A stretch of 64,000 nucleotides of DNA from Liolophura sinensis (lineage: Eukaryota > Mollusca > Polyplacophora > Chitonida > Chitonidae), in NCBI RefSeq assembly GCF_032854445.1, contig NC_088301.1, forward strand, positions 186,001 through 250,000, in the 5' to 3' direction. The notes beneath the pieces are model-generated. The model was not told where the DNA came from. It did no database searches and saw nothing but the letters and a program-made list of their open reading frames with translations. Position numbers and translations under genes: made by a program. This document shows, one piece after another, positions 6,901 through 44,700 of this stretch (positions within the stretch are counted from its first letter, which is position 1; each line of letters opens with the position of its first letter).

Positions 6901-9900
6901 AGCTCAAGAACTGAAATCCTGAATTTGGTAGCGGACGACGACACTCACTACAAGCCAGCTGAAAACCTCAGAACCAAATGACTTCATTGTTGTTTAATGC
7001 CATATACTAAAATGAGCGTAACTATATCGACCTTCTGAACTGTAAGTGACTGACAGGTACAATGTACGATAATGCTGTTAAATCAAAATTATCACATTTA
7101 TTTTGCCCTGTTTGCAATGTGAATCCACATGGTTTTATGGATTCCGGGGCGATTGGTTGGACAAGATATGTATGAGAATATTCCTAAAGCCAAACCCTGT
7201 GTGACATTCCCACTGGGTGACATTCCCGCTGGGTGACATCCCCACTGTGTGACATCCCCACTGGGTGACATTCCCACTGTGTGACATCCCCACTGGGTGA
7301 CATCCCCACTGTGTGACATCCCCAATGGGTGACATTCCCACTGGGTGACATCCCCACTGGGTGACATCCCCACTGCGCGACATCCCCACTGGGTGACATC
7401 CCAACTGGGTGACATCCCCACTGGGTGACATCCCCACTGGGTGACATCCCCACTGCGTGACATCCCCACTACGTGACATCCCCACTGCATGACATCCCCC
7501 TGTATCACATCCAAACCACACATACCTTATCTGGGGTAAGAAGGCTGGCCTGGTCTATCTGGGCTATGATTTCTGCTAACGCCTGCTGTATTCTCTCTGC
7601 ACAGGACTCAATGCTGCTACTTCTCAGCCGGTTTTCCTTGTTACGTAAGAAGGCATTCTTCAGCACATTGACTACTCTTCTACATGCAGACCTGGAAAAC
7701 CAACAAGGTCACCAGGCTTTCTTTACATGTACATGTACTATTTCTTCAATCAGTGTACATGTAAAATTGTCACAACATCTAACTCATGCATTCTTCAACT
7801 AATAATTCATCATCAATGGCTGCGAAATTCACATTTTGTCATGCTTTTCCAAAATGGTGGTAAGAAAAATAAACGATTGAGGGCTGAGCACATGAGCAAT
7901 ACATCAGCCATTCCGCAGCCACTATACTGAAGATACGTTGTAATGCATCTGTCTGAACTAAATGTCTGCTGCTTAGCAAAAGACTGGAGATTTACTCTAT
8001 AAACCCTGGTATTGGTGACACACGTGATCAAATAGCATGATAACTACATGTGTGATCAAATAGCATGACAACTACATGTGTGATCAAATTGCACGATAAC
8101 TACGTGTGATCAAACAGCATGATAGTTACATGTGTGATCAAATAGCATGATAGCTACATGTGTGATCAATTAGCATGATAACTATATTTGTGATCAAATA
8201 GCATGATAACTACATGTGTGATCAAACTGCATGATAACTACGTGTGTGATCAAACTGCATGATAACTACATGTAAATAAGGAGTAAACAGGTACATCTGA
8301 AATACAGAAGCTTATAAAAACAAGCTGCAGGTCAGTGAACAACGGGCATGTAGGTGATGCCATGCAAGAATTAATGAGGCTTTACAAGCTGGGCACTGTA
8401 AACTTCTCTTCCCAATGCCTGCTGAACCCTAAGCAAAACTGTCCTCCACTCAAGCCCCCTTCCCAATACCACATCAACGAGACAACAACATACAATAAAC
8501 ATTAGTTTAACTGATGAAGTTTGATGAGGGTTGCTGATACCTGGCATCTGTATCCTCCTCCAGTATGGTCTGCAGCTTCTGCATCAGGTCGGAGAAGTCT
8601 CCCATGCCTTTGACATGCTGTGCCAGGGGGCAGCACTTGTCTGGGGCATAACCCTTACCCCCAAGCCTGAGTCTGGTGATGAAGGACGTTGCTGTCTGAA
8701 AACATACAATACTGTTTTCATTGCTTCATGTACATCGCTTCAAGTGTAAAATAGCCGAGCAATACACGGACAGGAGATAACTAACATACAACAACAAGTA
8801 CTGTTCATCTTTCAGATTGAAATCCAAAGTGTGACAAGCAAAAAACTGAATTCAGACATAGGCCTCTTTGCTATAAGCCACCGACAGCCGAGAGAATCTG
8901 TGTATTGACAAGCTATGACAGGGCAGTATACTGTGACTACAGAACCAATCTCCAACCAAAACAGTTAGCCTGCTATTACATTCAGTTTAGCAAGAAACTT
9001 AATGTCATTTAATGCTATACTTAAAAAGTTTTCATTTAATCCCTGTCTGTCCGTTTTTACAGATGAAGGAATACCCAAGCGCCAGGGATAAACTGCAGAC
9101 CTCTGGCAATTTACTGACCAACTTTTACAACAAAGATACTTGAGGAATCTGTAAATTCCCCATACAAGCCCAGGATTGAACTTGTACCTGATGCGCCCTT
9201 AATACATACCTGGTACATTGGCATGTTTTTCAACCTGGCATATCTCTTGAGGTCTGTGAAGGCTGCGTGATTAAGATCTCTGTGAGGGGTATTGACAACC
9301 CGTGCTAAGGCCATTTCACTTCTCGAGTTTACCAACAGCTCCAAATATGACAAGACTGCACTATGCACGTAGCTCTACAAAACAAGCACATGTTACATCA
9401 TATTTATCTCAGGGTTTTTAATCAAAAGCTTTGCTTTCACAGATGTAGTAAGGCAGACATACTGTAATGTTGATACCAAAAATGATCAATATGTTAATTA
9501 GCTATCTGAAAAAAATGCTGCTCAGTCTCCACATTCCTATACATGTAATGAATAATTTGACTGTCAGCATATATGTAAAATGAAAATACATATGTATTAC
9601 CTCTGTTGCAGACTTGTGTGGTGTGATAAAACTTTTCCTGCCAAAGTTCTCTCCCTTGCTAGACTTCTTCAGGGTCTGTTGTAATGTTGATGGTACCAAG
9701 GAGATGTCAGGTGGCCGGTCTGGGGTCCCTAAACATGTGCTCATCTGGACATCATACACTTGTGCCTGTTTACACAGCATCCCCAACATCAGTTCCTGTC
9801 ACAAGGAAGTGTACACAGTAAGCTATACACCTAAACATGTGCTCATCTGGATGTCATACACTTGTGCCTGTTTACACAGCATCCCAACATCAGTTCCTGT

Positions 9901-12900
9901 CATAAGGAAGTGAACACAGTAAGCTATACACCTAAACATGTGCTCATCTGGATGTCATACACTTGTGCCTGTTTACACAGCATGCCCAACATCAGTTCCT
10001 GTCAAAAGGAAGTGTACACAGTAAGCTATACACCTAAACATGTGCTCATCTGGATGTCATACACTTGTGCCTGTTTACACATCATCCCAACATCAGTTCC
10101 TGTCATAAGGAAGTGTACACAGTAAGCTATACACCTAGACATGTGCTCATCTGGACATCATACACTTGTGCCTGTTTACACAGCATCCCAACATCAGTTC
10201 CTGTCATAAGGCAGTGTGCACAGTAAGCTATACACCTAAACATGTTCTCATCTGGATGCCATACACTTGTGCCTGTTTACACAGCATCCCCAACATCAGT
10301 TCCTGTCAAAAGGAAGTGTACACAGTAAGCTATACACCTAAACATGTGCTCATCTGGATGTCATACACTTGTGCCTGTTCACACAGTCATACACTTGTGC
10401 CTGTTTACACAGCATCCCCAACATCAGTTCCTGTCAAAAGGAAGTGTTCACAGTAAGCTATACACCTAGACATGTGCTCATCTGGATGCCATACACTTGT
10501 GCCTGTTTACACAGCATCCCCAACATCAGCGCCTGTCATAAGGAAGTGCACACAGTAAGCTATACACCTAAACATGTACTCATCTACTCACAACAGGTCT
10601 CTTGCTTACTAAGATGGGGCAGATGTGTTAACAAATGTGTCACTGCAGTGCTGGATAGGTAATTTGGAGCTATGTACTTAAATTTCAACCTGTAAACAAA
10701 GCTTTGTCTAAAAATACCGCTTTAATAGTGTAGTCCAGCTTTAATAGTGTGAGGTAACTTTATTACTGTGGGGCAGATTTAACACTGTGGGGAAACTTTA
10801 ATAGTGCGAGGTAACTTTATTGTTGTGGGGCAGATTTAACACTGTGGGGAAACTTTAATAGTGTGAGGTAACTTTATTGTTGTGGGGCAGATTTAACAGT
10901 GTGAGGTAACTTTATTATTGTGGGACAGATTTAACACTGTGGGGCAACTTTAATAGTGTGAGGTAACTTTATTGTTGTGGGGCAGATATAACACTGTGGG
11001 GCAACTTTAAAAGTAAAAAACACATTTATACAACCTATACCTTAAATGAGAGAGCTATACTTAAGGTTAAATAAAATATCTAAATTTTCTGTCAGCAACA
11101 CTTATTATTTGAGTATTTAACAGTTAAATATTCAAGGCTTAGAAGTCTCATTTACGCTGCCATTTGAACAGATTATATATGTCATCATGCTTAGCTTTGC
11201 CCACCAGCTCATTAGGACAAGGCATTCCAGACGAATTTTGGCAGACAACAACTCTCTAAACATTCCAAACTCTTTCTTTTTAGTTTTGGCTTTCATAGAC
11301 CTTAAAATCCATGATTATCACGATATACATACATATTTAGCTGGCTGGAAATCTACGTTATTCATATGGTAAGAGTAAAACGTTAAGCACCTTGACATCG
11401 CATTGAATATTCAACAGGTGGAAAGGAGGCTTTTCACTGGATAAGCCTAAAACATGTCGGGACTTTGCAGAAAATGGCAATGTTCTAAAACCATATTTCT
11501 CTTTAATGAAAGGTTAAAAAAAACCTAAAACACAGTTTGTAGAGCGCTTTCATTTAAGATATAGTTTGTATAAATGTGCTCTATTCTTTTAATGCTTTTG
11601 CAGCTTTAATAATGGAATGAAGCCTCGATCGTACCTCTTCAGCACTTCTCTCCGGACCCAGTACAACAATGAAACTGTGCTCCTGAAACTCCCTTTGCAA
11701 GCTTTCATTGTGTTCTAGTTCTCTGACCACAGCCAAATACACATCTGTCATGTCGGAGTAATTACTGTGAGACAGAAAGTCCTGGTATAATTGTAAAACC
11801 TCTTCGTGTTGAGATGTAGAGGAGGATGGCTTGTCTTCACGGTATGAGTCACTGGCTGAATGGGTGGTTCTTAGCCTCAATACATGCTTGTTCATCTGAA
11901 GAACTGAACTGGCCTCAACATCAAAGTCTCCAACGGCCTAAAATGCAAACACAGGACACATATCTCAGATCAGCTTTTCTACATGACAAATCCAACCTCT
12001 AAAATAACTATTTCGTTCTTGATGAAGCTCATCACTTTCCCTGATTTTGCGAGTTCTATTCGTCTTAGAAAAATGTTTTGGGTGTGAATTTTGGATCAAA
12101 TTCAGCAGGTTTTATTACCCCCTGAGGTATGAGTGACTTATCTGCTAACACCTATCCACAAACGACACCTCTTCTGACGGACACATTAAATTTAATTAAC
12201 TTCAAAAGGCAAGACAGGACATATCTTGATGTGGATTGTGGAGCATGGACTGTGATTTCATGGGCTGCTGACCTGTTTCTGTCTCTCAGCCAGGACTAGT
12301 TGTAAAGCCACAAGCTGGTCATCCTTGGAGAGAATGGTGATGCGCTCATTCCTATGCAGTACATACTTCCTGAACAAAGCCAGGTAGAAGGCGGACAGGC
12401 TCCTTCCTCGTACAGATGGGTCAGGAGCAGCAAAGACAATCTGCGGTGCTGAAGGTAAACGCTGGAGACATCAGTAACAGTAACAGTAACATGTTTTGCA
12501 TTTCTACTATTCACAGTAGTGTATAAACCTTGTATCAAGCGGGTCCTCATGCTAAGGCATTTGTCTGTTTGTTTCCATACATGATTGGTGTTTTATGCCG
12601 TACTCAAAAATACTTCACAGACGTCGGATGTGTGGGTATAAAATAAGGTAGAGCCAATGTGAAATGCACAAGCATTTGCAGGTTGGTGGCAGACCTTAGC
12701 ACGTACCACAGCAGAGGAAACCATGAGCTGGACTTGAACTCACAGTGAACTGCATTGTTGAGAGGCTCCTGGGTCACTGTGTTGCACTAGCACTCTCAAC
12801 ATGGAGGCACCAGCATATTTGTAGCAGTGTCAGTACAATACCAAAGACTTGGCAAATGACTCATTTACAGTAGCGTGTTTCTGCTGCCGTTCCGCCTAGC

Positions 12901-13287
12901 CACATCACGCCACCACGCATATCTGCTAGGGTTGATTCCAAGAAAGAAACATGAAGAGCTCCACATTAAAATAGGAGTGTAGACAGGTGGTTTGCTGACC
13001 ACTAACTAAACTGAAACTGAAGAGGTAAGAGCAACAAATGTTGAGAAGATCACGAGAGGGGACTCTGGGTGGTTTGGTGTATTATAAACCAACAATACAA
13101 ACTGGGATGACAAGTCCAGGAATGCCAAGATTGTGTTCAATGTCTTCTGTATGACATGATGATTTTATCAAATACCTGATCCAGATTTATTCTTCACTAC
13201 ATTGGTTAATTCCTCCAACACAGTCTCAGTCAGCTCTTCTTCGCCAACCGTTAAAAAGTAACACCTTTTTGTACTTTGGATAGTCAT
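954..13287 (-). CDS. PARPBP: PARPBP/PARI homologue (PCNA-interacting partner), 9 exons seen, C-terminus missing
   Basis: In vertebrates PARI binds PCNA and limits homologous recombination by disrupting RAD51 filaments; it resembles UvrD/Srs2 helicases. Exons (minus strand): 13287-13176, 12448-12273, 11937-11635, 9795-9601, 9374-9210, 8695-8541, 7691-7526, 2239-2068, 1044-954. Phases match through exon 7 (424 codons). Family blocks, matched from memory: ITILSKDDQLVALQLVLAE (exon 2), LQLYQDFLSHSNYSDMTDVY (exon 3), ELMLGMLCKQ (exon 4), LLVNSRSEMALARVV and HAAFTDLKR (about residues 276-305), RLGGKGYAP (327-335), QHVKGMGDFSDL. The ATG at 13287 follows an acceptor at 13299, so a 5' UTR exon probably lies upstream. 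The human protein is 579 residues. The C-terminal PIP-box exon is not seen and should lie left of position 1. Exon 8 has a frame conflict (see findings). Exon 3 would hit a stop at 11581 if its donor at 11634 were not used. The family call is strong; the exon 8/9 structure is moderate. Confidence 0.87.
1045..2067. other. PARPBP intron 8, no feature seen
   Basis: AT-rich intronic DNA between exon 9 and exon 8. I see no repeat array, coding frame or RNA gene. Confidence 0.5.
2690..4052. repeat. Minisatellite, 46-bp unit, about 30 copies
   Basis: Head-to-tail copies containing ggctatatacttatatctgg followed by accaagagttagtaatagtg, highly uniform. Variation is mostly at single positions (cttagt/gttagt/cttggt/cttaat), which could define unit subtypes. 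It lies in PARPBP intron 7. Confidence 0.95.
4203..5434. repeat. Long ATCC/ATGT-type tetranucleotide-derived array with higher-order blocks
   Basis: About 1.23 kb of interspersed atgtatcc, atgtatct and atgcatcc octamers. It lacks stops in several frames on both strands, giving spurious frames of up to 458 codons of Met-Tyr/His-Pro-Cys-Ile type. A rare variant (tattcatg) recurs at 4291, 4451 and 4595, so the array has internal ~144-160-bp higher-order copies. Confidence 0.95.
5830..6155 (-). mobile_element. SINE family B, about 320 bp
   Basis: Same element as at 30165-30475 in opposite orientation. Shared landmarks are the gaggaagtt/aacttcctc block, the cttggggttta end and a gatccagggtcaatcctggg-like B-box region. 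The copy is diverged and non-coding, inside PARPBP intron 7. Confidence 0.75.
6156..7190. other. Intron 7 remainder with a poly-G tract
   Basis: AT-rich DNA with one run of about 17 G near 6523-6540. I searched the minus strand for an exon that could resolve the PARPBP exon 8 frame conflict and saw none I could support. Confidence 0.5.
7195..7500. repeat. Minisatellite, 16-bp unit, about 19 copies
   Basis: Copies of ctgggtgacatcccca. Because 16 is not a multiple of 3, each frame cycles through the same 16-residue peptide, explaining three overlapping spurious minus-strand frames. It begins about 25 bases inside PARPBP intron 7 from the exon 7 donor (7525/7524). Confidence 0.95.
8020..8275. 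repeat. Minisatellite, ~28-bp unit, about 9 copies
   Basis: Copies of tgtgatcaaatagcatgata plus actacatg. Nearly every unit carries a TGATCA palindrome. It lies in PARPBP intron 6. Confidence 0.9.
9060..9209 (-). mobile_element. Diverged SINE fragment (family C)
   Basis: Resembles 57440-57690: a ccagggataaactgcag block, an actgaccaacttt block, and cccaggattgaacttgtacc, which looks like a reversed B box. It abuts PARPBP exon 5. The family assignment is tentative. Confidence 0.4.
9735..10590. repeat. ~100-bp minisatellite containing copies of the PARPBP exon 4 acceptor
   Basis: About 8-9 units. Each unit on the minus strand contains ttccttatgacag followed by gaactgatgttgg, the acceptor and first bases of exon 4, then about 55 further exon-like bases. 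The leftmost copy is the true exon 4. Four overlapping plus-strand frames of about 90 codons are repeat artefacts. Confidence 0.92.
10715..11010. repeat. Minisatellite, ~57-bp unit, about 5 copies
   Basis: Copies built on ttaatagtgtgaggtaactt and ggggcagatttaacactgtg, in PARPBP intron 3. Confidence 0.88.
12580..12812 (-). mobile_element. tRNA-head SINE (family A)
   Basis: Tail side gattggtgttttatgccgta at the left, tRNA-like head ending near 12812. It keeps a recognisable ggacttgaactcacag B-box complement. It lies in PARPBP intron 1. Confidence 0.75.
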
Positions 13288-16200: not shown

Positions 16201-16435
16201 AAACAGCTGAAGCCTTGCCTCGTGGACAAGAAAACATAAGGCACTGTAAGAAGGATGAAAACTCCGCTGTCATAAACCGGGTGATTTTGCCGGTGACAGT
16301 CGTGGACATGGGGGAGCGTTTCTGGTAAACCAGTTGATGAGCTAATTATTCTGATTTGGAAAATTGGACAAGAATTTTATTATTAACCAGACACATTTAT
16401 GTCTTCACCAACATGTTGAACAGATTTGACGCGGG

Positions 16436-18878: not shown

Positions 18879-21800
18879 ATGGCTGTCTCAATGAAGAAGT
18901 TGAGTTTGTTTGTCTTGGTGATACAGACAACTACGCTGGTGTTGATGTTACGCTACTCGCGCACTTCGGCAGGCAGAGGACAGAAGTATTTGGCCTCCAC
19001 GGCGGTTGTGATAGCAGAGGTGCTTAAGCTGTTGACATGCCTAACTATTATCTTCATGGAGAAAGGTAAGTTTGTGAAGAAGGCTTACATTTTGTTCAGT
19101 GACATGATACATGATATGGTATAAGGATGCAAAATTCATTGCTGTTTGAAAGGTATTTTCTGACATTTATTTACCTCTCTAAATGCGCTTTGGTTGGGTG
19201 ACATTTTGGGTTATTTACTGTACAGTGTATATATCAGAAAAAAAATCAGAATGGTGGTCTTTCTGTATAAAATAACATGTTGGCCAAAACTTTACTGTTT
19301 TGTTAACTTGTATAAATAACTAACGAAGTAACTAAATAAATAAATACTCAGCCTATATCCAATTTTCCTAACATTATTACACATTGTTAAAAAAGCAATG
19401 TAAGATATGTGCAGTAAAGTAACTTGCCAAAGGTCCACAGTTTACCAAATACCAGGCTTCCTCCACTATTGTATTCGTGAGGATGGTGTTAAGCAACAAT
19501 AAAATAAATGTAAGAATAAATAAATTAATGAAATAAGTAAATAAAATAATATACATGATGTATGGGGCAGGTTACAGCTTTGGGAAGGCCTGTGGTGTTG
19601 TACAGAGTGAGGTGTTGTACAAGCCAAGGGAGACTTTGAAGCTGATGATACCTTCAGGGCTGTACACCATACAGAATAACCTTCTTTATGTGGCTCTGAC
19701 TAACCTGGATGCGGCCACCTACCAGGTAAGGGGAAGTTACTCTCTCACAATTCACAGAGACTTTGAAGTTGATGATACCTTCAGGGCTGTACACCATACA
19801 GAATAACCTTCTTTATGTGGCTCTGACTAACCTGGATGCGGCCACCTACCAGGTAAGGGGAAGTTACTCTCTCACAATTCACAGAGACTTTGAAGTTGAT
19901 GATACCTTCAGTGCTGTACACCATACAGAATAACCTTCTTTATGTGGCTCTGACTAACCTGGATGCAGCCACCTACCAGGTAAGGGGAAGTTACTCTCTC
20001 ACAATTCACAGAGACTTTGAAGTTGATGATACCTTCAGTGCTGTACGCCATACAGAATAACCTTCTTTATGTGGCTCTGACTAACCTGGATGCAGCCACC
20101 TACCAGGTAAGGGGAAGTTACTCTCTCACAATTCACAGAGACTTTGAAGTTGATGATACCTTCAGTGCTGTACGCCATACAGAATAACCTTCTTTATGTG
20201 GCTCTGACTAACCTGGATGCAGCCACCTACCAGGTAAGGGGAAGTTACTCTCTCACAATTCACAGAGACTTTGAAGTTGATGATACCTTCAGGGCTGTAC
20301 ACCATACAGAATAACCTTCTTTATGTGGCTCTGACTAACCTGGATGCAGCCACCTACCAGGTAAGGGGAAGTTACTCTCTCACAATTCACAGAGACTTTG
20401 AAGTTGATGATACCTTCAGTGCTGTACACCATACAGAACAACCTTCTCTGTGTGGCTTTGACAAACCTGGGCTACCTACAAGGGAAGTCACTCTCTCATA
20501 TGTCAGGCTTTGAAGTTGATTGGTACTGTCAGGTACTTGGTGAGCTGAAGTGGTTTCTCCAAGCTCTGTCATTTTTCTGTACCAAAAAATCAGAGTGCCA
20601 TCATGTTACTAAAATACTTCAATCTACCATAGAACACTGGTCAGTCAAATAATTAATAACTGTGATTGTTATAGGTTACTTACCAGATGAAGATATTGAC
20701 AACAGCGCTGTTCTCTGTGATAATGCTGGGCAGACAACTGACTGCTGTGAAATGGATCTCATTACTGATACTCGTCATGGGGGTGGCTCTTGTGCAGGTG
20801 GGTGCATATTTGTCAGGGGAGTACTGATATGTCAGGGGAGCACTGACATGTCATGGGAGTGCTGACTTGTCAGGGGAGTGCTGACCTGTCAGGGGAGTGC
20901 TGACCTGTCATGGGAGTGCTTACCTGTCAGGGGAGTGCTTACCTGTCAGGGGAGTGCTTACCTGCCAGAGGAGTGCTAACATGTCAGGGGAGTACTGATA
21001 TGTCATGGGAGTACTGACATGCCAGGGGAGTGCTGACCTGTCAGGGGAGTGCTGACTTGTCAGGGGAGTGCTTACCTATCAGGGGAGTGCTTACCTGCCA
21101 GGGGAGTGCTAACATGTCAGGGGAGTCAGTGAGTACTGACCTGTCAGGGGAGTGCTTACCTGTCAGGGGAGTGATGACATGTCAGGGTAGTGCTGACATG
21201 TCAGGGGAGTACTGAAATGTCAGGGGTGCTGACATGTCAGTCAGGGGAGTGCTGACCTGTCAGGGGAGTACTGATATGTCATGGGAGTACTGACTTGTCA
21301 TGGGAGTACTGACCTGTCATGGGAGTGCTGACCTGTTAGGGGAGTGCTGACCTGCCAGGGGAGTGCTGACATGTCATGGGAGTACTGATATGTCGTGGGA
21401 GAACTGACTTGTCAGGGGAGTGCTGACCTGTCAGGGGAGTGCTGACCTGTCATGGGAGTGCTGACCTGTCAGGGGAGTGCTTACCTGTCAGGGGAGTGCT
21501 TACCTGCCAGGGGAGTGCTAACATGTCAGTGGAGTACTGATATGTCATGGGAGTACTGACATGTCAGGGGAGTGCTGACCTGTCAGGGGAGTGCTGACTT
21601 GTCAGGGGAGTGCTGACTTGTCAGGGGAGTGCTGACATGTCAGGGGTGCTGACCTGTCAGGGGAGTGCTTACCTGTCAGGGGAGTGCTTACTTGTCAGGG
21701 GAGTGCTGACTTGTCAGGGGAGTGCTGACATGTCAGGGAAGTACTGAAATGTCAGGGGTGCTGACCTGTCAGGGGAGTGCTTACCTGTCAGGGGAGTGCT

Positions 21801-24800
21801 TACCTGCCAGGGGAGTGCTAACATGTCAGGGGAGTACTGATATGTCATGGGAGTACTGACCTGTCAGGGGAGTGCTGACCTGTCAGGGGAGTGCTTACCT
21901 ATCAGGGGAGTGCTTACCTGCCAGGGGAGTGCTAACATGTCAGGGGAGTCAGTGAGTGCTGACCTGTCAGGGGAGTGCTTACCTGTCAGGGGAGTGCTGA
22001 CATGTCAGGGGAGTACTGACATGTCAGGGGAGTACTGAAATGTCAGGGGTGCTGACATGTCAGTCAGGGGAGTGCTTACCTGTCAGGGGAGTGCTTACCT
22101 GCCAGGGGAGTGCTAACATGTCAGTGGAGTACTGATATGTCATGGGAGTACTGACATGTCAGGGGAGTGCTGACCTGTCAGGGGAGTGCTGACTTGTCAG
22201 GGGAGTGCTGACTTGTCAGGGGAGTGCTGACATGTCAGGGGTGCTGACCTGTCAGGGGAGTGCTTACCTGTCAGGGGAGTGCTTACTTGTCAGGGGAGTG
22301 CTGACTTGTCAGGGGAGTGCTGACATGTCAGGGAAGTACTGAAATGTCAGGGGTGCTGACCTGTCAGGGGAGTGCTTACCTGTCAGGGGAGTGCTTACCT
22401 GCCAGGGGAGTGCTAACATGTCAGGGGAGTACTGATATGTCATGGGAGTACTGACCTGTCAGGGGAGTGCTGACCTGTCAGGGGAGTGCTTACCTATCAG
22501 GGGAGTGCTTACCTGCCAGGGGAGTGCTAACATGTCAGGGGAGTCAGTGAGTGCTGACCTGTCAGGGGAGTGCTTACCTGTCAGGGGAGTGCTGACATGT
22601 CAGGGGAGTACTGACATGTCAGGGGAGTACTGAAATGTCAGGGGTGCTGACATGTCAGTCAGGGGAGTGCTGACATGTCATGTCAGGGGAGTACTGAAAT
22701 GTCAGGGGTGCTGACATGTCAGTCAGGGGAGTGCTGACATGTCAGTCAGGGGAGTGCTGACCTGTCAGGGGAGTACTGATATGTCATGGGAGTACTGACT
22801 GCAGTCATGTGGATATGTCAGGGGAGTGCTGACATGTCAGGGGAGTACTGATATGTCAGGGGAGTGCTGACATGTCAGGGGAGTACTGATATGTCAGAGG
22901 AAAACTGACATGTCAGGGGAGTACTGACATGTCAGGGGAGTACTGATATGTCAGGGGAGTGCTGATATGTCAGGGGAGTACTGATATGTCAGGGGAATGC
23001 TGACATGTCAGGGGAGTACTGATATGTCAGGGGAGTACTGATATGTCAGGGGAGTACTGACCTGTCAGGGGAGTGCTGACATGTCAGGGGAGTGCTGACA
23101 TGTCAGGGGAGTACTGATATGTCAGGGGAGTGCTGACATGTCAGGGAAGTACTGACATGTCAGGGGAGTACTGACATGTCAGGGGAGTACTGACATGTCA
23201 GGGGAGTACTGAGTACTGATATGTCAGGGGAGTGCTGACATGTCAGGGGAGTACTGATTAGTCAGGGGAGTGCTGAGTACTGATATGTCAGGGAAGTGCT
23301 GATATGTCAGGGGAGTACTGATGTGTCAGGGAAGTGCTGAATACTGATATGTCAGGGGAGTACTGATATGTCAGGGGAGTGCTGAGTACTGATATGTCAG
23401 GGAAGTGCTGATATGTCGGGAGTACTGATATGTCAGGAGTGCTTATATGTCAGGGGAGTGTAGGTATGCTAGTGGGGTGTAGATATGATAGGGGAGTGTA
23501 GATGTGCTAGGGGAGTGTAAGTATTTGCCAGGGGAGGGTAAATATATGCCAGGGGAGTGTAGATATGCTAGGGGAGTGTAAATATATGCCAGGGAAGTAG
23601 ATATATGCTGGGGGAGTGTAAATATATGCCAGGGGAGTGTAAATATATGTATGCCTGGGGAGTGTAGATGTGCTAGGGGAGTGTAAATATATGCCAGGGA
23701 AGAAGATATATGCCAGGGTATTGTAGCTGTGCTAGGGGAGTGTAAATATATGCCAGGGGAGTGTAAATATATGCCCGGGGAGTGTAGATGTGCTAGAGGA
23801 GTGTAAATATATGCTAGGCGAGTGTATATATATGCCAGGGGAGTGTATATATATATATGCCAGGGGAGTGTAGAGATATGGTAGGAGAGTTGAAATATAT
23901 GCCATCGGAGTGTACGTGTGCTTGGGGAGTGTAAATATATGCCAGGGAAGTAGATATATGCCAGGGGAGTGTAGATGTGTTAGAGGAGTGTAACTATATG
24001 CTAGGGTAGTGTACATGTGCTAGGGAAGTGTAGATATATGCCAATGGAGTGTAGATATATTCCAGGGAAGTGTAGAGATATGGTAGGGGAGTGTAAATAT
24101 ATGCCAGGGAGTGTAGATGTGTTAAGGGAGTGTAAATATATGTCAGGAGAGTGTAGATGTACTAGGGGAGTGTAAATATATCCCAGGGGAATATAGATAT
24201 ATGCCAGGGGAGTGTAGAGATATGGTAGGAGAGTGGAAATGTATGCCAGCGGAGTGTAGATATTTTCCAGGGGAGTGTAGAGATATGGTAGGAGAGTGTA
24301 AATATATGCCATGGGAGTGTAGATGTGCTAGGCAAGTGTAGATATATGCCAGGGGAGTGTAGATATATTCCAGGGGAGTGTAGAGATGTGATAGGAGAGT
24401 GGAAATATATGTCAGGGGAGTGTAGATGTGCTAGGCGAGTGTAGATATATGCCAGGGGAGTGTAGAGATATGGTAGGGGAGTGTAGAGATATGTTAGGAG
24501 AGTGGAAATATATGCCAGCAGAGTGTAAATATATTCCAGGGGGGTGTAGAGATATGGTATGGGAGTGTGGAGATATGGTAGGAGAGTGGAAATATATGCC
24601 AGCGGAGTGTAAATATATTCCAGGGGAGTGTAGATATGCCAGGGGAGTGTGGATATGTCAGGGGAGTGTAGATATCTGAAGTTCACATATACCAGATTTG
24701 TACAGTTATGTCATGTCATGATTCTTGCAGTTGACAGCAATCCAAAAACTATATACATAGAGTTACATGTATGTAGAGTCAAGTCTGCTTCAACCATATC

Positions 24801-27800
24801 AAGCCTTCCTTGTAAAGCTGTCACTTCATTTTCACGCCGTACAGGTAATCGATCGTTGTTTTTGGTTGGTTAGCGGCTCTTATGTTTTCATATTCCTCCC
24901 ACGGTTTAATCGTTGGCATTGCACATAAAAAGGATTTGTCCTAGAACACATGGACAGAGTGCTTGGGGAAAATCACAGCAAAGCTGTTATATACAGTCTT
25001 TATATGATCAAGATTTTCTTTGCAAGATTTCTATCTTCTGCTTGAGGAAAGTAGTAGAACAACTCTGTTTTCTGACTTGTCTTATCGAGGTGCGTTATTG
25101 AGGTGTGTTATCGAGGTGCGTTATTGAGGAAGTAGTGGAGATAACTAGGCCTTGGACGAGCATGGCTCGGTGCATTTGCCCTTTTATCTCAAGATGATTT
25201 TGTTTGTCATAACACCCACTTGTGTTCCACAGGTGTGGTTTTTTTCAGAACGTCTGGCCTTGTTCTAGAGAACAACAAAACAGTTCTATCTATTTGACCT
25301 TATTGTGGTGTGAAGCCTAGCCAGAAAAGTTCTATCTATTAAAGTTAGAATAAAAGTATGCATAGATGATATTGTAATCAACATAAGCATTAATTTATGT
25401 ATGAAAAGATGAGGAAAAGAAAAACAGAATTACATGTATTTCTCATGTCATGTTATGATATTCAGTCTTAATCATTTGTAGATCAGTCTCATGTCAGGTT
25501 ATGATATTCAGTCTTTATGTTTTGTAGATAAGTCTGATGTGAGGTTATGATATTCAGTCTCCATGGTTTGTAGATAAATCTCATGTGAGGTTATGATATT
25601 CAGTCTCTATAGTTTGTAGATAAATCTCATGTGAGGTTATGATATTCAGTCTTTATCGTTTGTAGATCAGTCTCATGTCAGGTTATGATATTCAGTCTTT
25701 ATGTTTTGTAGATAAGTCTGATGTGAGGTTATGATATTGAGTCTCTATGGTTTGTAGATAAATCTCATGTGGGGTTATGATATTCAGTCTGTATGGTTTG
25801 TAGATAAATCTCATGTGAGGTTATGATATTCAGTCTGTATGGTTTGTAGATAAATCTCATGTGAGGTTATGATATTCAGTCTCTGTTTTGTAGATAAATC
25901 TCATGTGAGGTTATGATATTCAGTCTCTATAGTTTGTAGATAAATCTCATGTGAGGTTATGATATTCAGTCTCAATAGTTTGTAGATAAATCTCATGTGA
26001 GGTTATGATATTCAGTCTTTATGGTTTGTAGATAAATCTCATGTGAGGTTATGATATTCAGTCTCTATGTTTTGTAGATAAATCTCATGTGAGGTTATGA
26101 TATTCAGTCTCTGTTTTGTAGATAAATCTCATGTGAGGTTATGAGATTCAATCTGTATGGTTTGTAGATAAATCTCATGTGAGGTTATGATATTCAGTCT
26201 GTATGGTTTGTAGATAAGTCCCATGTGAGGTTATGATATTCAGTCTGTATGGTTTGTAGATAAATCTCATGTGAGGTTATGATATTCAGTCTCTATGGTT
26301 TGTAGATAAGTCCCATGTGAGGTTATGATATTCAGTCTGTATGGTTTGTAGATAAATCTCATGTGAGGTTATGATATTCAGTCTGTATAGTTTGTAGATA
26401 AATTTCATGTGAGGTTATGATATTCAGTCTCTATGTTTTGTAGATAAGTCTCATGTGAGGTTATGATATTCAGTCTGTATGGTTTGTAGATAAGTCCCAT
26501 GTGAGGTTATGATATTCAGTCTGTATGGTTTGTAGATAAGTCCCATGTGAGGTTATGATATTCAGTCTCTATGGTTTGTAGATAAGTCCCATGTGAGGGT
26601 ATGATATTCAGTCTTTATGTTTTGTAGATAAATCTCATGTGAGGTTATGATATTCAGTCTCTATGGTTTGTAGATAACTCCCATGTGAGGTTATGATATT
26701 CAGTCTGTATGGTTTGTAGATAAGTCTCGTGAAGTTATGATATTCAGTCTGTATGGTTTGTAGATAAGTCCCATGTGAGGTTATGATATTCAGTCACATT
26801 GGTTTGTAGATAAGTCCCATGTGAGGTTATGATATTCAGTCTGTATGGTTTGTAGATAAGTCTCATGTGAGGTTATGATATTCAGTCTCCATGGTTTGTA
26901 GATAAATCTCATGTGAGGTTATGACATTCAGTCTGTATAGTTTGTAGATAAGTCTCATGTGAGGTTATGATATTCAGTCTCCATGGTTTGTAGATAAATC
27001 TCATGTGAGGTTATGATATTCAGTCTCTATGTTTTGTAGATAAATCTCATGTGAGGTTATGATATTCAGTCTCCATGGTTTGTAGATAAATCTCATGTGA
27101 GGTTATGATATTCAGTCTCCATGGTTTGTAGATAAATCTCATGTGAGGTTATGATATTCAGTCCTGTATGGTTTGTAGATAAATCTCATGTGAGGTTATG
27201 ATATTCAGTCTCTATGGTTTGTAGATAAATCTCATGTCATGTTATGATATTCAGTCTCCATGGTTTGTAGATATGTCCCATGTGAGGTTATGATATTCAG
27301 TCTGTATGGTTTGTAGATAAGTCTCGTGAGGATATGATATTCAGTCACATTGGTTTGTAGATAAGTCCCATGTGAGGTTATGATATTCAGTCTCTATGGT
27401 TTGTAGATAAGTCCCATGTGAGGTTATGATATTGAGTCTCTATGGTTTGTAGATAAATCTGATGTCAGGATATGATATTCAGTCTCCATGGTTTGTAGAT
27501 AAGTCCCATGTGAGGTTATGATATTCAGTCTCTATGGTTTGTAGATAAGTCTCGTGAGGATATGATATTCAGTCACATTGGTTTGTAGATAAGTCCATGT
27601 GAGGTTATGGATATTGAGTCTCCATGGTTGTAGATAAGTTCCATGTCAGGTTATGATATTGAGTCTCCATGGTTTGTAGATAAGTCCCATGTGAGGTTAT
27701 GATATTCAGTCTCTATGGTTTGTCAGATAAGTCCCATGTGAGGTTATGATATTCAGTCTCTATTTTTTGTAGATAAGTCCATGTGAGGTTATGATATTGA

Positions 27801-30800
27801 GTCTCTATGGTTTGTAGATAAGTTCAATGTGAGGTTATGATATTCAGTCTCTATGGTTTGTAGATAAATCTCATGTGAAGTTATGATATTGAGTCTCTAT
27901 GGTTTGTAGATAAGTTCCATGTGAGGTTATGATATTCAGTCTCTATGGTTTTGTAGATAATCTCGTGAGGTTATGATATTCAGTCACATTGGTTTGTAGA
28001 TAAATCTCATATGAGGTTATGATATTCAGTCTGTATGGTTTGTAGATAAGTCCCCATGTGAGGTTATGATATTGAGTCTCTATGGGTTTGTAGATAAGTT
28101 CCATGTGAGGTTATGATATTCAGTCTGTATGGTTTGTAGATAAGTCTCATGTGAGGTTATGATATTCAGTCTCTATGTTTTGTAGATAAATCTCGTGAGG
28201 TTATGATATTCAGTCTGTATGGTTTGTAGATAAATCCCATGTGAGGTTATGATATTCAGTCTGTATGGTTTGTAGATAAGTCCCATGTGAGGTTATGATA
28301 TTCAGTCTGTATGGTTTGTAGATAAGTTCCATGTGAGGTTATGATATTCAGTCTGTATGGTTTGTAGATAAGTCTCATGTGAGGTTATGATATTCAGTCT
28401 CCATGGTTTGTAGATAAATCTCATGTGAGGTTATGACATTCAGTCTGTATGGTTTGTAGATAAGTTCCATGTGAGGTTATGATATTCAGTCTGTATGGTT
28501 TGTAGATAAGTCCCATGTGAGGTTATGATATTCAGTCTCTATGGTTTGTAGATAAGTCCCATGTGAGGTTATGATATTCAGTCTCTATGTTTTTTAGATG
28601 CCGAGTGAAAACAACCCGTCTAAACCGTTCACCCATGGAGAAACATCCCAGGTGGTGGGATTGATGGCCGTCACCTGTGCATGTTTCAGCAGCGGGTTTG
28701 CAGGCGTATATTTTGAGAAAATCCTGAAGGGTTCAGGTCAAAGTCTCTGGATAAGAAATGTTCAGTTGGGTGAGTGATCAGTAGACAGTAACAATGAACA
28801 GCTGTGGTGCATGAAATCCGTGTACACCACATATAGTACGTGTACACCACATATAGTACGTGTACACCACATATAGTACGTGTACACCACGTATAGTACG
28901 TGTACACCACATATAGTACGTGTACACCACATATAGTACGTGTACACCACATATAGTACGTGTACATGTTACATCCCTATGTTTTTTTTATATCAGCCCA
29001 TTTACTACCATGATCAGATGGCTACTTACCTGAATCCTTCTACTGAAATTAACCAATCCAATCTTCATCAAATCATATACTTTACCTGATTTTTGTTCAT
29101 GCAGAAATTTCTGACATAGGGAACTACATAGTGAAAACACTTAAATACGTGGTGTGGGATGGGGCCTTGGTGTGGCGATTGGTGACACTGAGCAGTTTGT
29201 ACGTCTTGTGTGGCCTTTTGCACTGTGTAATGTTCGTTGAAAACCAATTATCTTCTGGGAAAGTCCTTCTTTAACTTGCCAAAGAATAGTGGGTTATGCT
29301 TGGCACTTCAGTTTTTTTCTACCCATAAAACTGACATTAATCGTATAGGTAAAAAATTCTTGAATGTGGCGTTAAGTAAAAATCAAATAAATAAATTAAC
29401 AAACATTTGGAGGACCAACTTAGGCAGTTACATGCTACAGGAAGTGTTTTGACATGATTATCATCAGCGAACCAGCTGCCAGCAGTTTCTGCTATGGCAG
29501 TGTACAGATGTAGAATGTATAGCCTCATATGGGCTTTCACTGATGTATATTAAACCACAAATGGTGAACTGATGTATAGCCCTATACTACACAGTTTTGT
29601 AGCCCAATACTACACTATTGTGTAGCCCTATATTACTGTGTTGTGTAGCCCTATATTACTGTGTTGTGTAGCTCCATATTACACTGTTGTGTGGCCATAT
29701 ATTACGTTGTTCTGTATGTATAAAGTCATCTTTCATATGATGTGAAAAATTTAATGTGTATACTTTCTCTCAGGTCGTGATCATTTCTTAAACTATAAGA
29801 AATATAATTCCCTTCAGCTATAATCCCTTCAATAGTAGGTAGATTTCTTCAGCTGGTTTACTGAGCATGGATAATCCCAGTGCAGAAAGATCTATGTGCT
29901 TGATGACTTTGTTTGCAGCCCTATTTGGGATTATCACAGGCCTGGTGGGAGTGTTGATCTCAGACTATGAACTGGTGACAAAGGATGGCTTTTTTCAGGG
30001 TTATACTCAGTAACCTGGACTGTGGTGGCTCTACAGGTAAATAGTGACAAATCAGATACCAAATTACTGATGCAGTAACTCCATATATGATGCGGATCCT
30101 GTAACAACTTTTGTACGGTAAAAATATGGTGAAGTAGAACTGTCATTCAGATGAACAGATTTTTGAGCTGAGATTGGTGTTCGGGGGCGGTAGATCCAGG
30201 GTCAATCCTGGGTTGAGTCACACCTAAGACCTAAAAAGAGGAAGTTGTAACTTCCTCGTTTGGTGTTCAGCATGAGACGGATAGTGCAATGACTGGTTGA
30301 CCCGTATCAGTGTATGGGCTCAGGTGGGGCGCCTTACTTGCCTTCGGTTAGGCGTTTCAGTGAAGCAACACTAGATAAAAGAGCAGTGGAAATCCGTCCT
30401 GCATCAAGGAGGCACATTACATACACTCTAAGGATTTGTTAAGTATGACGTTAAACCCCAAGCACTCACTCATTCATCAAAAATGATCCATGAGACTGTT
30501 TTTGGCATGTGGCAATTGAGGGAAATTTGGTCCAGAGACAGGTGGGCTGGTGAAATTTGGTCCAGACACAGGTGGGCTGGTGAAATTTGGTCCAGAGACA
30601 GGTGGCTGGTGAAATTTGGTCCAGACACAGGTGGGCTGGTGAAATTTGGCCCAGAGACAGGTGGGCTGGTGAAAATTTGGCCCAGAGACAGTTGGTTTGG
30701 TGTCATAATCCTGTAAATGGGGGATGTGTTGTCTCCATGATAGAGGGAGGAGATTCTGATCCAGCAGCCCTTTGAATATGATACTGTGAGAATACAGAAC

Positions 30801-37979: not shown

Positions 37980-38075
37980 TACTGCAGTTTCCTCTGCCCA
38001 TAAACCTGGCTTGCCATCATGTAAGCGAAGAATTCTTGAGCACACCAATCACTCTCTCACTCACACAGTGACAAC
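37980..38075 (+). mobile_element. SINE family A tail fragment
   Basis: cttgccatcatgtaagcgaa followed by gaattcttgagcacaccaatc, a diverged family A tail. Confidence 0.4.
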
Positions 38076-39139
38076 CGATGAAACAGCCTGAAAGTCTATC
38101 TGGTTACGAACTTGTCTTGTGGAAACCATGTACCAACATGAAAAGGCTGGAAAACTGTTTTGCTACGGACTGACGGATGAGAGACATGGGACTAATACAT
38201 AGTAAAGTAAGTCCTTGTTTATGTTGCAAGCCATGTGGTGTTCATTTAGAACTACTGTATCCGGTAAGGTCATGAGGTCTACATGACATAACTTGTGTGC
38301 ATATACATCACATATACAACAGTGATTTGAGTGTACAAGGAGTGTGATAACTTTCTAACAGTCATATTAACAATGACCACATGCCCTTAACATTCAATCT
38401 CTTTGAAGTGGATCCAGAAGTAGATGATGTTGACGGTGTTATATGTTGACGGCAGCTCAAGATCTTTCTCTCCACACTTACGTGTACGTGTCAAACTGCA
38501 TATACATATGTACACTGTAGATAATGGAATAAAGAAACTGGTAGCTCAACACGAAAATAATGATGCAACAATTAAAAGATCAACACAGACATCAGATGCA
38601 TTTCTGTGTATGGACAATTTAATCTCGTATATACAACAGTTTGAACATAGTTTCACTTACAGTGTAATTAACTACATGTACAAATAAAAACATATACAAC
38701 ACTTCAAAATGATGTACTATTCACCAAGGTAAACAACTTAATTTGTACCCTATTACACACCTTTCTTTCTTTTTACTCTCTAAACCAAGCAATTTTCATT
38801 CATGTTTCACAGTTACCGGGAGTGCAATTCTTCAACCTTGTCAAATGCGGACTGATACAACACATACATCTTTGTCGAGCCATGAAGCTTCACCGAACAA
38901 AAACTAAACTGCATAATTTCCTTTCTAAAACATGGAAAATGTTGAGAAAAAATGATGAAAGTCTTCATTAAGGGGATGCAAATATACCTGTAGTAGATTT
39001 AGTCTCGCATGAATAACTGACAAATTCAAATAATATCAGTTTTAATATAGATTTGTAAAACACAATAGCTGTAATAATACAATTTTAAATTTTAAAAGAA
39101 TAACAACGAAATGATTAAAATACATAAATCAGTGTGTTT

Positions 39140-39362
39140 TTACATTTATCTGATTTTACACTGTACCCAAGAATATTTCACTTACATGACGGCAGCCAGT
39201 ATTACGGTGGAAGGAAACCAGACAGAGCCCAAGAGAAACCCATGTCCATGCCAAGGTTGCTGAACGACCTTCCAATGAGTTGGACTTGAACTCACAGCAA
39301 CCGCATTGGTGAGAGGGTCCTGTGCCATTGTGCCGCACTGGTACGTTGACCATCTCAGCTCC
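39140..39362 (-). mobile_element. tRNA-head SINE (family A)
   Basis: Tail at left (gattttacactgtacccaag), B-box complement ggacttgaactcacagcaac, head near 39360. It gives two spurious minus frames. Confidence 0.75.
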
Positions 39363-40774
39363 CAGGACACTAAGGCCATAAAAAATTGTTTATAAGGTAC
39401 CGCCACCTGATTATATTAACCCCCCACCCGACCCTTTTTGCTGGCATTTTAAAAAAAAAAAAAAAAAAAAAATGATATACAGCTCATTCCTGTTTACTAT
39501 GCGCAGTGCGTCAGTTCACATCAGAATGTGTGCGCCAGTCAGTGTTAAAACCTGGATCATCCAATTCACAGAAATTGATTATAAAATGAATAAATATTGG
39601 ATGTCTGTTCTTTCTTATTTTTTTTTTCACAAGATAAATATCTTTTGCAGACAATAAAATGAAAAAAGACCTTCGCGAAAATTTTCTTTCAAAAAGACTG
39701 ACATCTTTAGTGTAAAAAAAATAATACATTTGTAAAATCTGTGATAAGCCGGTTAACAGTTATGATTTTGACAAATTTGGCCTAAAAACTGAGTTCAGTT
39801 CTACCTCCACATTAATATAAAGATTGGCATATTCATGAAATTCATTGGAGTTTGAGTTGTCCATTACAGATACAAGGACATAAAGTGCCTTTTAGAACCT
39901 ATCGTTATTTAAGAAAGTTTATAAAATTGATTGTGTATCAATTATTTATAAAAATAAAATAAAAAAGGAGCCGCGTCAGTAATGTAGCACCAAAAAAAAA
40001 AAAATAAAATAAATAAAAAAAAACGCCTGCCTGCCCATTTAAAAAAAAATGTCTGAGAAGCATTTAATTAATGTTTAATTGCCTTATGGTTATAACCCTG
40101 TAACCATTAAATGCTTCACATAATGGAACACATTGCTGTACAAGTGAAAGGGGGCATACTGTACATGTCATTCATGATAGAAACACGTTCAACTTTACAA
40201 TGAGTTTCACTAAGAATTCAGTATGTGCATGTCATTGAGTACCTTTACATAATCTCTGCATGGGCCAGCCCTCCACAATTAGTATGCAAAATGGCGAAAA
40301 TGAGCATGAATATTCAACATGTACGAATACATTAATTTTCATACAGCTATGTATAACAGAAGGCAGAATATTATAGCAGTATTTTAATGTGAATATCTGG
40401 ATTCACCTGAAATTTCTTTTTTCACCACTTGTTTTATATGTGGGACTACATGTGTTATATTTGTTCCAACTTTTGGAAAAGAAAAGCTGGGGATGCAGGC
40501 TCATTGCACAAAAGCGGGCTGTCCATGACACTGTATGCATTTCTGACAGTCTCTCTGCTTGGAAAATATGTATATGTCACATGTCTTCTGTCCACTTTTC
40601 ATGATTAGAAATGCTATGTACTGTATGTACTGTTTTGTAATTTATGCCAATACATATAAATCCTACACCTGTTGGAGGTGAAAATGAGAGCTAACATGAT
40701 AAAGTAAACAAGATATAAAAATAGTACTCAATTCGGGCGAAACTGTGTTTTACATAAAATATATAATATGTTTA

Positions 40775-40778
40775 AGTG

Positions 40779-40822
<44 letters not shown>

Positions 40823-40824
40823 CA
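40775..40824. repeat. TA/TG dinucleotide microsatellite
   Basis: A tatatata run passing into a run of about 14 TG repeats ending tgcacacatg. Confidence 0.9.
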
Positions 40825-41380
40825 CATGTATGCATTTAGATATAATCTTGACAACCTGTCAGTGGTAAGTACACATATAGAACAATAAACAAGGAAAACA
40901 TGAAGAGAAAAACTGAATTGTGCCTTTTAAAAATAACAGCAAATATAATAATAGAATGTACTGAAGATGAAACGTCTCTAACTGATGACAGGAATCCCAT
41001 GCTCTAGATCTGTGACTTACCACAAGTATTTGGCATCATATGTCAAGAATAAATAGTAAGTTGGTATGATGGACAGTATCATGCAGGTGATTAATAGGGT
41101 TTATTATGGCTGTCATTTCATCTCAAATTCCAACACCTCTATATAAGTACATGCATGTTCACAAAAATAAACCACCTGAGAAAAACACACTACTAAAATG
41201 TAGGGAGCTCTGGACTAGTACAGTAAAACACTTGCAACAATAAAAGATGAGATTTTTAAAAAATCTAGTTGAGAGTGGTAACTCTACCCTTCAAATCTGG
41301 TGAGCAGTAGTAATGTAATTGATGGTTAAATCCTAATGAGATTATTCTGTTAGCCTCGTTAAAAGGAAAGCTCCTGGAAA

Positions 41381-41386
41381 TTTATT
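41381..41386 (-). terminator. Candidate polyadenylation signal for the dehydratase gene
   Basis: AATAAA on the minus strand 323 bases past the stop codon. A second hexamer lies at 41100-41105. Usage cannot be judged from sequence alone. Confidence 0.35.
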
Positions 41387-41708
41387 TTAATTACCATTTA
41401 ACATTTGAACCATCTCAATCTTATGCATCAGTGTCAGTATTTTCATGAGATACAGGCTACAATACTGGAAGAAGTCACTGTTTCCTAACTGAAACATATC
41501 TGCTTAGCCTTAGCTTACATGAAATGGAACTTGCATATCTCATAACCTTGTACAATACACTCATCTAAATACACTGGAATTGAAATCAGCATTTGTCTCC
41601 AACAAAGTTACAACATTCACATGTACGCTGGTAAACAAGAAAGGGATTACATACATCCTGGCAGATTTATGTAAACAGATTAAATGCTTAGCCTGGTAAG
41701 ACCCCTTT

Positions 41709-44700
41709 TCAGTTGACTGCCCCCCAGACAACATCTGTGTACTGCTGGCGTAGGGTCTTCTCCAATTCATCAGCATGATCCTGGTCCCGGGTCTCCACCA
41801 CACATTTCACCTGTAACAATAACACACACAGAATACAGTTCACCTGTAATAATAACACAGATTGCACTTCATCTGTAACAATGGCACACAGAATGCACTT
41901 CACCTGTAACAATGACACACAAAATGCACTCTACCTGTAACAATAACACACAGAATACACTTCACCTGTAACAATAACACACAGATTACACTTCATATGT
42001 AACTGAGGCACAGAATGCACTTCACCTGTAACAATAACACACAGAATACACTTCACCTGTAACAATAACACACAGATTACACTTTATCTGTAACAATGAT
42101 ACACAGAATGCACTTCACCTGTAACAATGACACACAGAATCCACTTCACCTGTAACAATAACATACAGATTACACTTCATCTGTAACAATGATACACAGA
42201 TTACACTTCACCTGCAACAATAACACACAGATTACACTTCATCTGTAACAATGATACACAGAATGCACTTCACCTGTAACAATGACACACAGAATGCACT
42301 TCACCTATAACAATAACACACAGAATACACTTCACCTGTAACAATAACACACAAAGAATACACTTTACATGTACATGTAACATAACCAAAATATGTACAC
42401 ATAAAATACATCTGCAACATTTACAACACAAGAATACACTTCACATGTAACAGAACCTTCCACATGCACTTGACTGTTGAACATTCTTTAGCTACATCAC
42501 TAATTGCACTCAATCAGAAATACATTCTACTCGAAGACAAACGTGCATAAATATGAAGGCCTACATTAACAAAACTATTTACCTGAACTGAAAATATGTC
42601 TGCCTTCAGCCATGCCCTTTCATGAAAAATATCCTTGATACTGAAATGACAATGAAGATCATGTAGTTCATATGTCAGAGAGGACCACGAATACCGTAAA
42701 TGCCTTTTTATTCACGGGCATAAACTCTTGCAGATTTGGTAAGAAGACACATTCGCGAGAATCAACTTTCGCGGATCTTAACAGAATTTTTGGACAACTG
42801 ATAAACGAAAATCAAACTTGAATACAGAAACGTCGAGTAATAAAACAACTCAAGCATTCAAGTAACAATGTTATCATTTGAACTCGTTTGTACCTGTAAG
42901 ATGTGACAAAAATTCTATACAATACAGTAATTTGATCAGACAAAGGAAATTAATCCTCCTAAGCTTTTAATCTTTTGAAGACTGCTAATCTTTATAAGAC
43001 GAAGCCCTTACCTGCTGAGTGAACAAATATTTGGACAACTGTTTAATTATCATGCATTAGCATTGTGAGTGAAACTTTTAGTGAACTGTGACATATTTGA
43101 GTAAATTTCTCAGAAATCATCATTATGAAGAGGAAGTTTGAAGTGCTGAAACCCCTGAGTGATTGGGTGCGTCGGAAAGGTGATCTGACTGGAAGGCAAG
43201 TACAGTCAACAGCCTCTCTCATCATTTGTATATCCTACACACCCCCAGTACAAATTATCGATTTGTATGTCTCTGACCTCGGCAATAAAACAACAACGTC
43301 ACAATGTAGCATACTTAGACAAAGCCAAGCCTCCTTAAAAGAAAGCAATATTAACTGACGATCAGTTAAGCTGGATTTGTGAAAGCCGGAATACATTCTA
43401 ATTAGGTATTTCTAATTAACATGTTTGAAAAAGTATTAGAACTGTAGTGCTTGTTCATGAATTTATGACTGTAACGCATGCTACATTAATAAATTACTTA
43501 CATGGGTTTTATACTCGAAGGCACTTATTTTTTCGGAAATATGTTTGCCGCGAAACCCGCGAATGTTAGCACCACGCAAACAAAAAGGCATTTACAGTAT
43601 TTCCAATTTATATGGATAACATTATATGAATAATGTGACAGTGACAGTGACAGTGACTCAGTGGGGTGGGGGGAGTGGGGCGTCTGGTATGGTGTCTTTA
43701 GCACGGTGTTCAAGTGAAGATGTGCTCTAAACATGTCCGCATTGGGTCTGGTCTGTTACTAGTGGATGCCGTGGTGATGTGATCGCCATGGTGATACGAG
43801 CGCCATGTTGAGCCCCAAATCATATGTCCAGCAAATTATTTGTAGGCCTACATGCATCACACGTCTCCCAACCTCAGAACTGCCAACATATTTTATGGTG
43901 CATTCTCTGATGGTAATCATGTGATGCTCAAACCACCCAATGTCAAGTACAAACCCTCGGCTCTAGACTGGGCAGAGCTAGCTAGGCCAAGTCATGTGTC
44001 CTTTAGGGTATCAAGTATTTAAACACATTAATCAATAAAGCCTATTCTTTAAGTCTTTTATAGTCTTGATCAGACAGAGTTAAAAGATTCTGACTGACTC
44101 AGTACATCATAAAACTAACTGTTCAAACACTTCTCTCTGACAAATGTATATAACTATCACTGACAAATTTTTTCATAAATTGTAGTTCCTTTTACAATAT
44201 TTTCTTTAGTTCGTTTTGTACACTGTAGCCACATATACAGGTAGTACTTTAAATCAACTTGCTACATAAAGATGGACCATAATCCTGGAAGTTGTGTCAT
44301 TACAATAATCTTACATGGAGGTCTCAAGTTGACATCAACTAACTAGAAAGTGAAAGTGACTGAGCTGTGAGTTACCTGACCCCGAGCTGTGCCATGAGGC
44401 GTGTGATCTCAGCTATTCCCCCTGGCCTGTCACTCACAGTCACCACAAACCTGATCAGTCTACCATCTGCCGCCAGGCCCCTCTCTATCACACGTCCCAG
44501 AGCTGTTGTATCTATGTTGCCTCCACACAAGGCGATCACAACCCTTCATAACAAAAAATACATTCATTTCTGACTGATGATATGTACATGTACACCATCT
44601 GCTAGAACAATGTAGTCTACAAAATGCTACACAAATTAGTCTTTCACACCCTACTCAAAAATATTTTACCTATACAACTGTGGTCAGCACTATGGTTTGA

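Follow-up and report, generated by a model that had tools for sequence, protein, structure and literature searches.

A 64,000-nucleotide stretch of the chiton Liolophura sinensis (assembly GCF_032854445.1, contig NC_088301.1, positions 186,001 to 250,000 of the forward strand; called the window below and numbered from its first letter) contains minisatellite arrays whose repeat units carry copies of exon-intron junctions of the genes in which they lie. In a sample of other loci from the same genome, arrays spanning a splice donor were two to four times as frequent as in a model of random seeding, whereas arrays spanning an acceptor occurred at about the random rate. The arrays are probably (about 75%) minisatellites of the type known as mirages in lancelets, i.e. 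local tandem duplications that caught an exon edge with its splice site and expanded into the intron, with roughly random ends, and that are tolerated at junctions.

Arrays copying splice junctions in the window

The window yielded 92 array rows with Tandem Repeats Finder (TRF), and its exons were placed by sequence reading together with a small exon finder whose training set came from other genes in the same genome. An earlier note on this DNA had described four arrays with a splice site in the unit, and all four are real:

19630-20470, plus strand: 127-bp array (6.6 copies, 98% match by TRF) at the donor of exon 2 of an SLC35A-like gene (19725/19726)
9728-10585, minus strand: 101-bp array at an acceptor of a PARPBP-like gene (9795/9796), unit of 68 exon and 33 intron bases, acceptor included
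41802-42373, minus strand: 31-bp array (18.5 copies by TRF) at the last-exon acceptor of a dehydratase gene (41810/41811)
25441-28599, plus strand: 46-bp array (about 69 copies) at the acceptor of exon 4 of the SLC35A-like gene (28597/28598)

The first three span their junctions. The unit at SLC35A exon 2 consists of the last 96 exon bases and 31 intron bases including the donor GTAAGG; the GT was kept in 5/5 aligned intronic copies and, in a looser search that found 8 copies including the true one, in 6/8. The AG was kept in all 8 copies found of the PARPBP-like unit, the true one counted, and the dehydratase unit holds 9 exon and 22 intron bases with the acceptor. The unit at SLC35A exon 4 carries the acceptor tract and the AG but just 2 exon bases, so that this array abuts the junction without spanning it; the window thus has three spanning arrays and one abutting array.

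Genome searches with pieces of the three spanning arrays, which skip very common words and score one candidate region per query, matched the respective own locus only (3/3; with the PARPBP-like array there were 8 matches, all at its own locus), and these arrays therefore look like local duplications. Nothing was found in favour of insertion of a dispersed mobile element at splice sites, and on the same matches this origin was rejected for these three arrays; given that the units copy their own exon edges, it is next to impossible.

Donor and acceptor junctions in a sample of other loci

The sample consisted of 26 loci (279,426 bases) from the CCT/Cpn60 (9 loci), HSP70 (5), myosin (10) and ALDH (2) families, picked through family searches by their exon matches and blind to repeats. 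The CCT/Cpn60 loci matched on several exons, with two near-intronless loci excluded; the HSP70 set comprised five regions, one with two tandem genes, with intronless copies and loci of one or two matches excluded; the myosin loci had at least 4 matches within a span of at most 20 kb and came from a search in which 65 of 213 candidates were scored; and the ALDH family gave few matches (14 rows), from which two loci were used. Missing exons were supplied by tblastn with paralogues, giving 197 exons with 394 edges and 307 called junctions; these junctions are inferred calls, and some of the 394 edges are gene ends rather than splice sites. TRF arrays of score below 80 or period below 10 were dropped, and paralogue matches inside exon-repeating arrays were deleted before counting. 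The first exon of the CCT locus CCTd, mis-set by its profile match, was left uncounted (one array abuts its acceptor and another lies 12 bp from its donor). The 82 sample arrays cover 16.4% of the sampled gene sequence.

The number expected by chance was obtained by collapsing each array to one unit and placing it at random outside exons. Thirteen of the 82 arrays spanned a called junction versus 6.21 expected (P = 0.0061), three of them in CCT, one in HSP70, nine in myosin and none in ALDH loci. The excess lay at donors, of which 11 were spanned versus 3.07 expected (P = 1.6e-4), while 2 acceptors versus 3.27 expected corresponded to background. When placement was weighted by GC content the figures were 13 versus 6.39 (P = 0.0079) for all junctions and 11 versus 3.35 (P = 3.3e-4) for donors; for arrays with a score of at least 300, 13/59 spanned a junction versus 5.22 expected (P = 0.00096), and at an earlier stage with 173 junctions the count had been 9/67 versus 2.80. 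Several thresholds and subsets were tried, and all P values are nominal.

A second test scored copies by alignment and was independent of TRF except in drawing the control points: the query for each junction was a 40-base piece with the junction at its centre, and copies were looked for on the intron side at distances of 25 to 1025 bases, a range that may pass a short intron. At threshold 30 a copy was found for 13/150 donors, 3/155 acceptors and 109/3555 control intron positions (donors versus control, P = 0.001; donors versus acceptors, P = 0.0096), and donors gave 15/150 at threshold 24 (P = 0.003) and 11/150 at threshold 40 (P = 0.0076). In the window, copies were found at threshold 30 for 1/23 donors and 2/23 acceptors. 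The two tests share loci and most of their cases and are not independent of each other. Together with the span counts, these results suggest, for a sample of other genes, that repeats copying splice sites favour intron starts rather than both intron ends. The non-random placement proposed in the earlier note is thus supported for donors, in this sample, and not for acceptors; an effect at junctions generally is not supported, although three of its four cases were acceptors.

Several results weigh against this reading. In the three window genes, from which clustering had been inferred, only 3/13 arrays span a junction versus 2.12 expected (P = 0.35), with donors at 1 versus 1.13, so that the window by itself gives no evidence of clustering. 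In that count the exon edges depart from GT/AG for three SLC35A donors and one acceptor, one PARPBP acceptor and three dehydratase acceptors; the three SLC35A donors are off by one base, and the spanning arrays overlap by more. The PARPBP donor at 7525 was excluded and scored separately. In the sample, the subset of paired junctions gave 8 versus 4.51 (P = 0.073). The first result, with 23 loci and 266 junctions, was 10/67 versus 4.79 (P = 0.015); three loci, the myosin locus MYOj and the two ALDH loci, joined the sample afterwards, and MYOj contributes three donor cases. Myosin loci hold 9/13 spanning arrays, three of those nine in one locus. With all junctions pooled, the alignment test gave 20/305 (P = 0.053), 16/305 (P = 0.035) and 13/305 (P = 0.15) at thresholds 24, 30 and 40. 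Finally, in 135 bounded introns of 29 loci (sample and window), array coverage within 25 bp of a junction was 6.5% at donors and 3.7% at acceptors versus 27% over introns, a difference due in part to the lengthening of introns by the arrays they contain. Since coverage drops toward junctions, clustering as a matter of raw per-base coverage was rejected, and "clustering at junctions" as a plain statement is wrong.

Arrays lying near a junction without spanning it had been offered as further evidence, namely three that start within about 15-50 bases of a donor:

7197-7499, minus strand: 16-bp array ending 26 bp from donor 7525, unit without clear kinship to the donor
20811-24675, plus strand: 19-21 bp arrays starting 13 intron bases past the end of SLC35A exon 3 (20797)
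28819-28966, plus strand: 20-bp array 49 bp past the end of SLC35A exon 4 (28769), unit unrelated to the donor

As evidence of clustering such arrays had to be discarded, since in the sample 9/69 non-spanning arrays lay within 60 bp of a junction versus 14.6 expected. The array at 20811, whose donor-proximal part (20822-21222) was used for the comparison, is alone among the three in scoring higher against its own donor (24) than against all 173 other donors; the array by donor 7525 scored 15, with 12% of 174 donors equal or better, and the one by donor 28769 scored 8, with 92% equal or better. In that part the unit is a degenerate match to the exon 3 donor, and the array is possibly an old mirage. 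Among 38 pairs of a junction and a near but non-spanning array, some of them with an exon lying between array and junction, nine had a unit closer to the own junction than to 95% of the other junctions of the same kind; these include the donors HSPc 2117, CCTf 7594, MYOd 11925, MYOc 9289 and window 20797, each of which outscored every other donor, as well as the SLC35A exon 4 acceptor. The array at the donor of the ALDH locus ALDa is likewise a degenerate donor copy outside the spanning count. Degenerate copies of the own donor thus occur among the near arrays (e.g. 20811, ALDa), and the spanning counts probably err on the low side. The GC content of non-spanning units in the sample was 0.436 versus 0.372 in intron sequence outside arrays, and some of these units may be old decayed exon copies.

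Origin and persistence of the arrays

In all 13 spanning sample arrays one copy forms the exon edge and continues the reading frame, and the remaining copies extend into the intron. Donor and acceptor boundaries are both affected, in the window and in the sample. The place of the junction within the unit did not depart from uniform (Kolmogorov-Smirnov test, P = 0.27, 16 arrays, low power), and the junction-targeted breakage suggested in the earlier note thus gains no support from it. Copy polarity is not claimed: copies resemble the exon copy less the farther they lie from it in 11/13 scorable spanning arrays, and likewise at 46/74 non-spanning ends (median rho -0.11). Nor is a difference between unit parts claimed, identity being slightly higher in the exon part (Wilcoxon test, P = 0.058).

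Tandem duplication is very common in the genes of this genome, as the array coverage of the sample shows, and under the mirage-type account its breakpoints would be roughly random relative to the junction. A unit would by chance take in the edge of an exon together with the splice site and then expand into the adjoining intron. A duplication wholly within an exon would damage the protein, whereas one that spans a junction could survive if splicing keeps the exon-proximal copy and leaves the other copies in the intron. The sequences establish the anatomy of the arrays, their presence at many loci and, in one sample, the donor excess; we infer that splicing uses the exon-proximal site, that the arrays have no effect on fitness, and that donors are set apart from acceptors by some filter or birth bias. 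Splicing generally locates the 3' splice site through a scan that starts at the branch point, and the lack of enrichment at acceptors therefore fits a cost of extra upstream acceptors. The two- to four-fold excess at donors is left unexplained by tolerance. Junction-targeted breakage, R-loops and decoy selection are at most possible contributors.

If long units simply fell over dense junctions with no excess at all, one would expect what the window alone shows, acceptors at background and lower array coverage near junctions; the sample counts for all junctions and for donors, and the similar outcome of the alignment test, are difficult to accommodate, and pure chance is an unlikely explanation, although one to be taken seriously. 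A birth coupled to splicing or transcription, in which duplications begin at donors (e.g. at nicks or R-loops directly downstream of the 5' splice site) and not at acceptors, would account for an excess that is confined to donors in both kinds of test on the same loci and persists under GC weighting, and also for the ten arrays without exon overlap that start within 100 bp of a donor versus three that end within 100 bp of an acceptor. However, the position of the junction in the unit, which did not depart from uniform, and the lack of overall enrichment of non-spanning arrays near junctions argue against it, the excess of G over C in non-spanning units is weak (0.226 versus 0.209) and no stronger than in introns (0.197 versus 0.174), and a splicing filter against acceptor copies could account for some of the asymmetry even if births were unbiased; we therefore rate it as rather unlikely. 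In a stronger form, duplication would be born preferentially at 5' and not 3' splice sites through transcription or engagement of U1 and the spliceosome, so that exon ends would be continually re-copied and provide a lasting reservoir of alternative donors and potential new introns; this we likewise hold to be improbable.

Selection might also preserve the copies for a role as splicing decoys or backups, the former having been considered in the earlier note. The splice dinucleotide was kept in 161/168 copies of 16 arrays (similarity search with the dinucleotide left free, true sites included), with a mismatch of 1.3% at the site versus 9.6% at same-motif controls in 16 arrays; an earlier count had given 7/332 versus 274/2656. 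In an alignment of 17 arrays it was off consensus in 5 cells versus 33.1 for random unit pairs (P = 0.002), and in 4 variable columns versus 10.3 (P = 0.011). Same-motif pairs gave 27.4 cells, with 0/20,000 permutations as low as the observed 5 (P = 0.0005 by columns), and neighbours within 10 columns gave 25.1 (P = 0.016; columns, P = 0.043). The GT and AG are thus kept better than other unit bases, but barely better than their near neighbours: within 6 columns the difference was weaker (cells, P = 0.028; columns, P = 0.059), and moving the centre of the alignment changed the P values within 10 columns to 0.026 and 0.048 for cells and 0.08 and 0.15 for columns. Moreover, copies are mutually non-independent, so that cell counts overstate the effect, acceptors alone show nothing (4 arrays, P from 0.32 to 0.42), and the test was conceived after the data had been seen. 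The pattern is at most a hint of selection, and decoy selection is very unlikely to explain the arrays.

Known systems and features of the genes studied

In two reports (PMC3087553, PMC3902484), mirages are minisatellite tandem duplications of exon-intron boundaries in the lancelet Adh3, globin, troponin C and PGBD5 genes; they seemingly do not disturb splicing, and the Adh3 array is somatically unstable. The chiton arrays share with them tandem units measuring 10 to about 160 bp, in which an exon edge is joined to intron sequence, the copied AG or GT, the involvement of both donors and acceptors, and extra copies inside the intron. They differ in the host, in being found at several loci of a sample drawn without regard to repeats and in having up to 42 extra copies; normal splicing and somatic instability were reported for the lancelet, whereas the chiton arrays are known from the sequence of one assembly. 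Genes in human segmental duplications (PMC2812944) share a minisatellite expansion at an exon-intron boundary that alters introns, but there the changes arose recently between paralogues and are in part said to create introns, while the chiton arrays concern existing junctions; and intron gain by AGGT tandem duplication (PMC3443670) shares the copying of splice-like sequence, whereas the chiton arrays copy an existing junction. No report of mirages in a mollusc was found in the open-access literature, to which the search was confined, so far as its text could be consulted. That a sample of mollusc genes unselected for repeats contains this structure suggests that its distribution extends beyond the lancelet lineage. 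The chiton arrays provide natural gene sets for asking how splicing picks among many near-identical sites and whether junction copies become introns, and the difference between donors and acceptors offers a clear genome-wide test.

The window exons adjoining the arrays discussed above are:

19571-19725, plus strand: SLC35A-like exon 2, last 96 bases in the repeat unit (sequence and exon finder)
20675-20797, plus strand: SLC35A-like exon 3, donor 20797/20798 (sequence; same donor in the exon finder)
28598-28769, plus strand: SLC35A-like exon 4 (sequence; parts recovered by the exon finder)
9601-9795, minus strand: PARPBP-like exon, first 68 bases in the repeat unit (sequence and exon finder)
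7526-7691, minus strand: PARPBP-like exon with donor 7525 (sequence and exon finder)
41709-41810, minus strand: last exon of the dehydratase gene (sequence; the exon finder model continued into the array)

The joined exons of the SLC35A-like gene (plus strand) match PF04142 (Nuc_sug_transp, 1.6e-90), as befits a nucleotide-sugar transporter. Its exon 5 has a frameshift in the assembly, the frame being broken at a run of six T at 29990-29995, which may be either a homopolymer assembly error or a real lesion. The other gene with family support above the Pfam cut-off is that of the pyridoxal phosphate-dependent dehydratase (minus strand), whose joined upstream exons match PALP (9.4e-33); its ACT match is below the cut-off. 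For the PARPBP-like gene (minus strand) the sole family support is a weak UvrD_C match of the joined exons, also below the Pfam cut-off, and the name PARPBP is the label given in the earlier note, not confirmed here.

Among the sampled loci, an HSP70 exon at L042 (G000:C1:28752000-28761999) lies in an open frame of 42,745 amino acids; the locus starts with 4,498 N that lie in this frame, whose extreme length is thus most likely an artefact of the N run. At L023 (G000:C1:26642195-26643386) two adjacent myosin exons match the same profile positions (118-152 and 121-152) and are possibly mutually exclusive exons. Elsewhere in the window, a 1.2-kb array of the 8-base word ATCCATGT at 4204-5434 lies inside open frames of 460, 449 and 438 amino acids in the three forward frames, and similar short sequences on opposite strands at 30160-30470, ending in ...CACTCACTCAT, and at about 6000-6150 look like copies of a short interspersed nuclear element (SINE) family.

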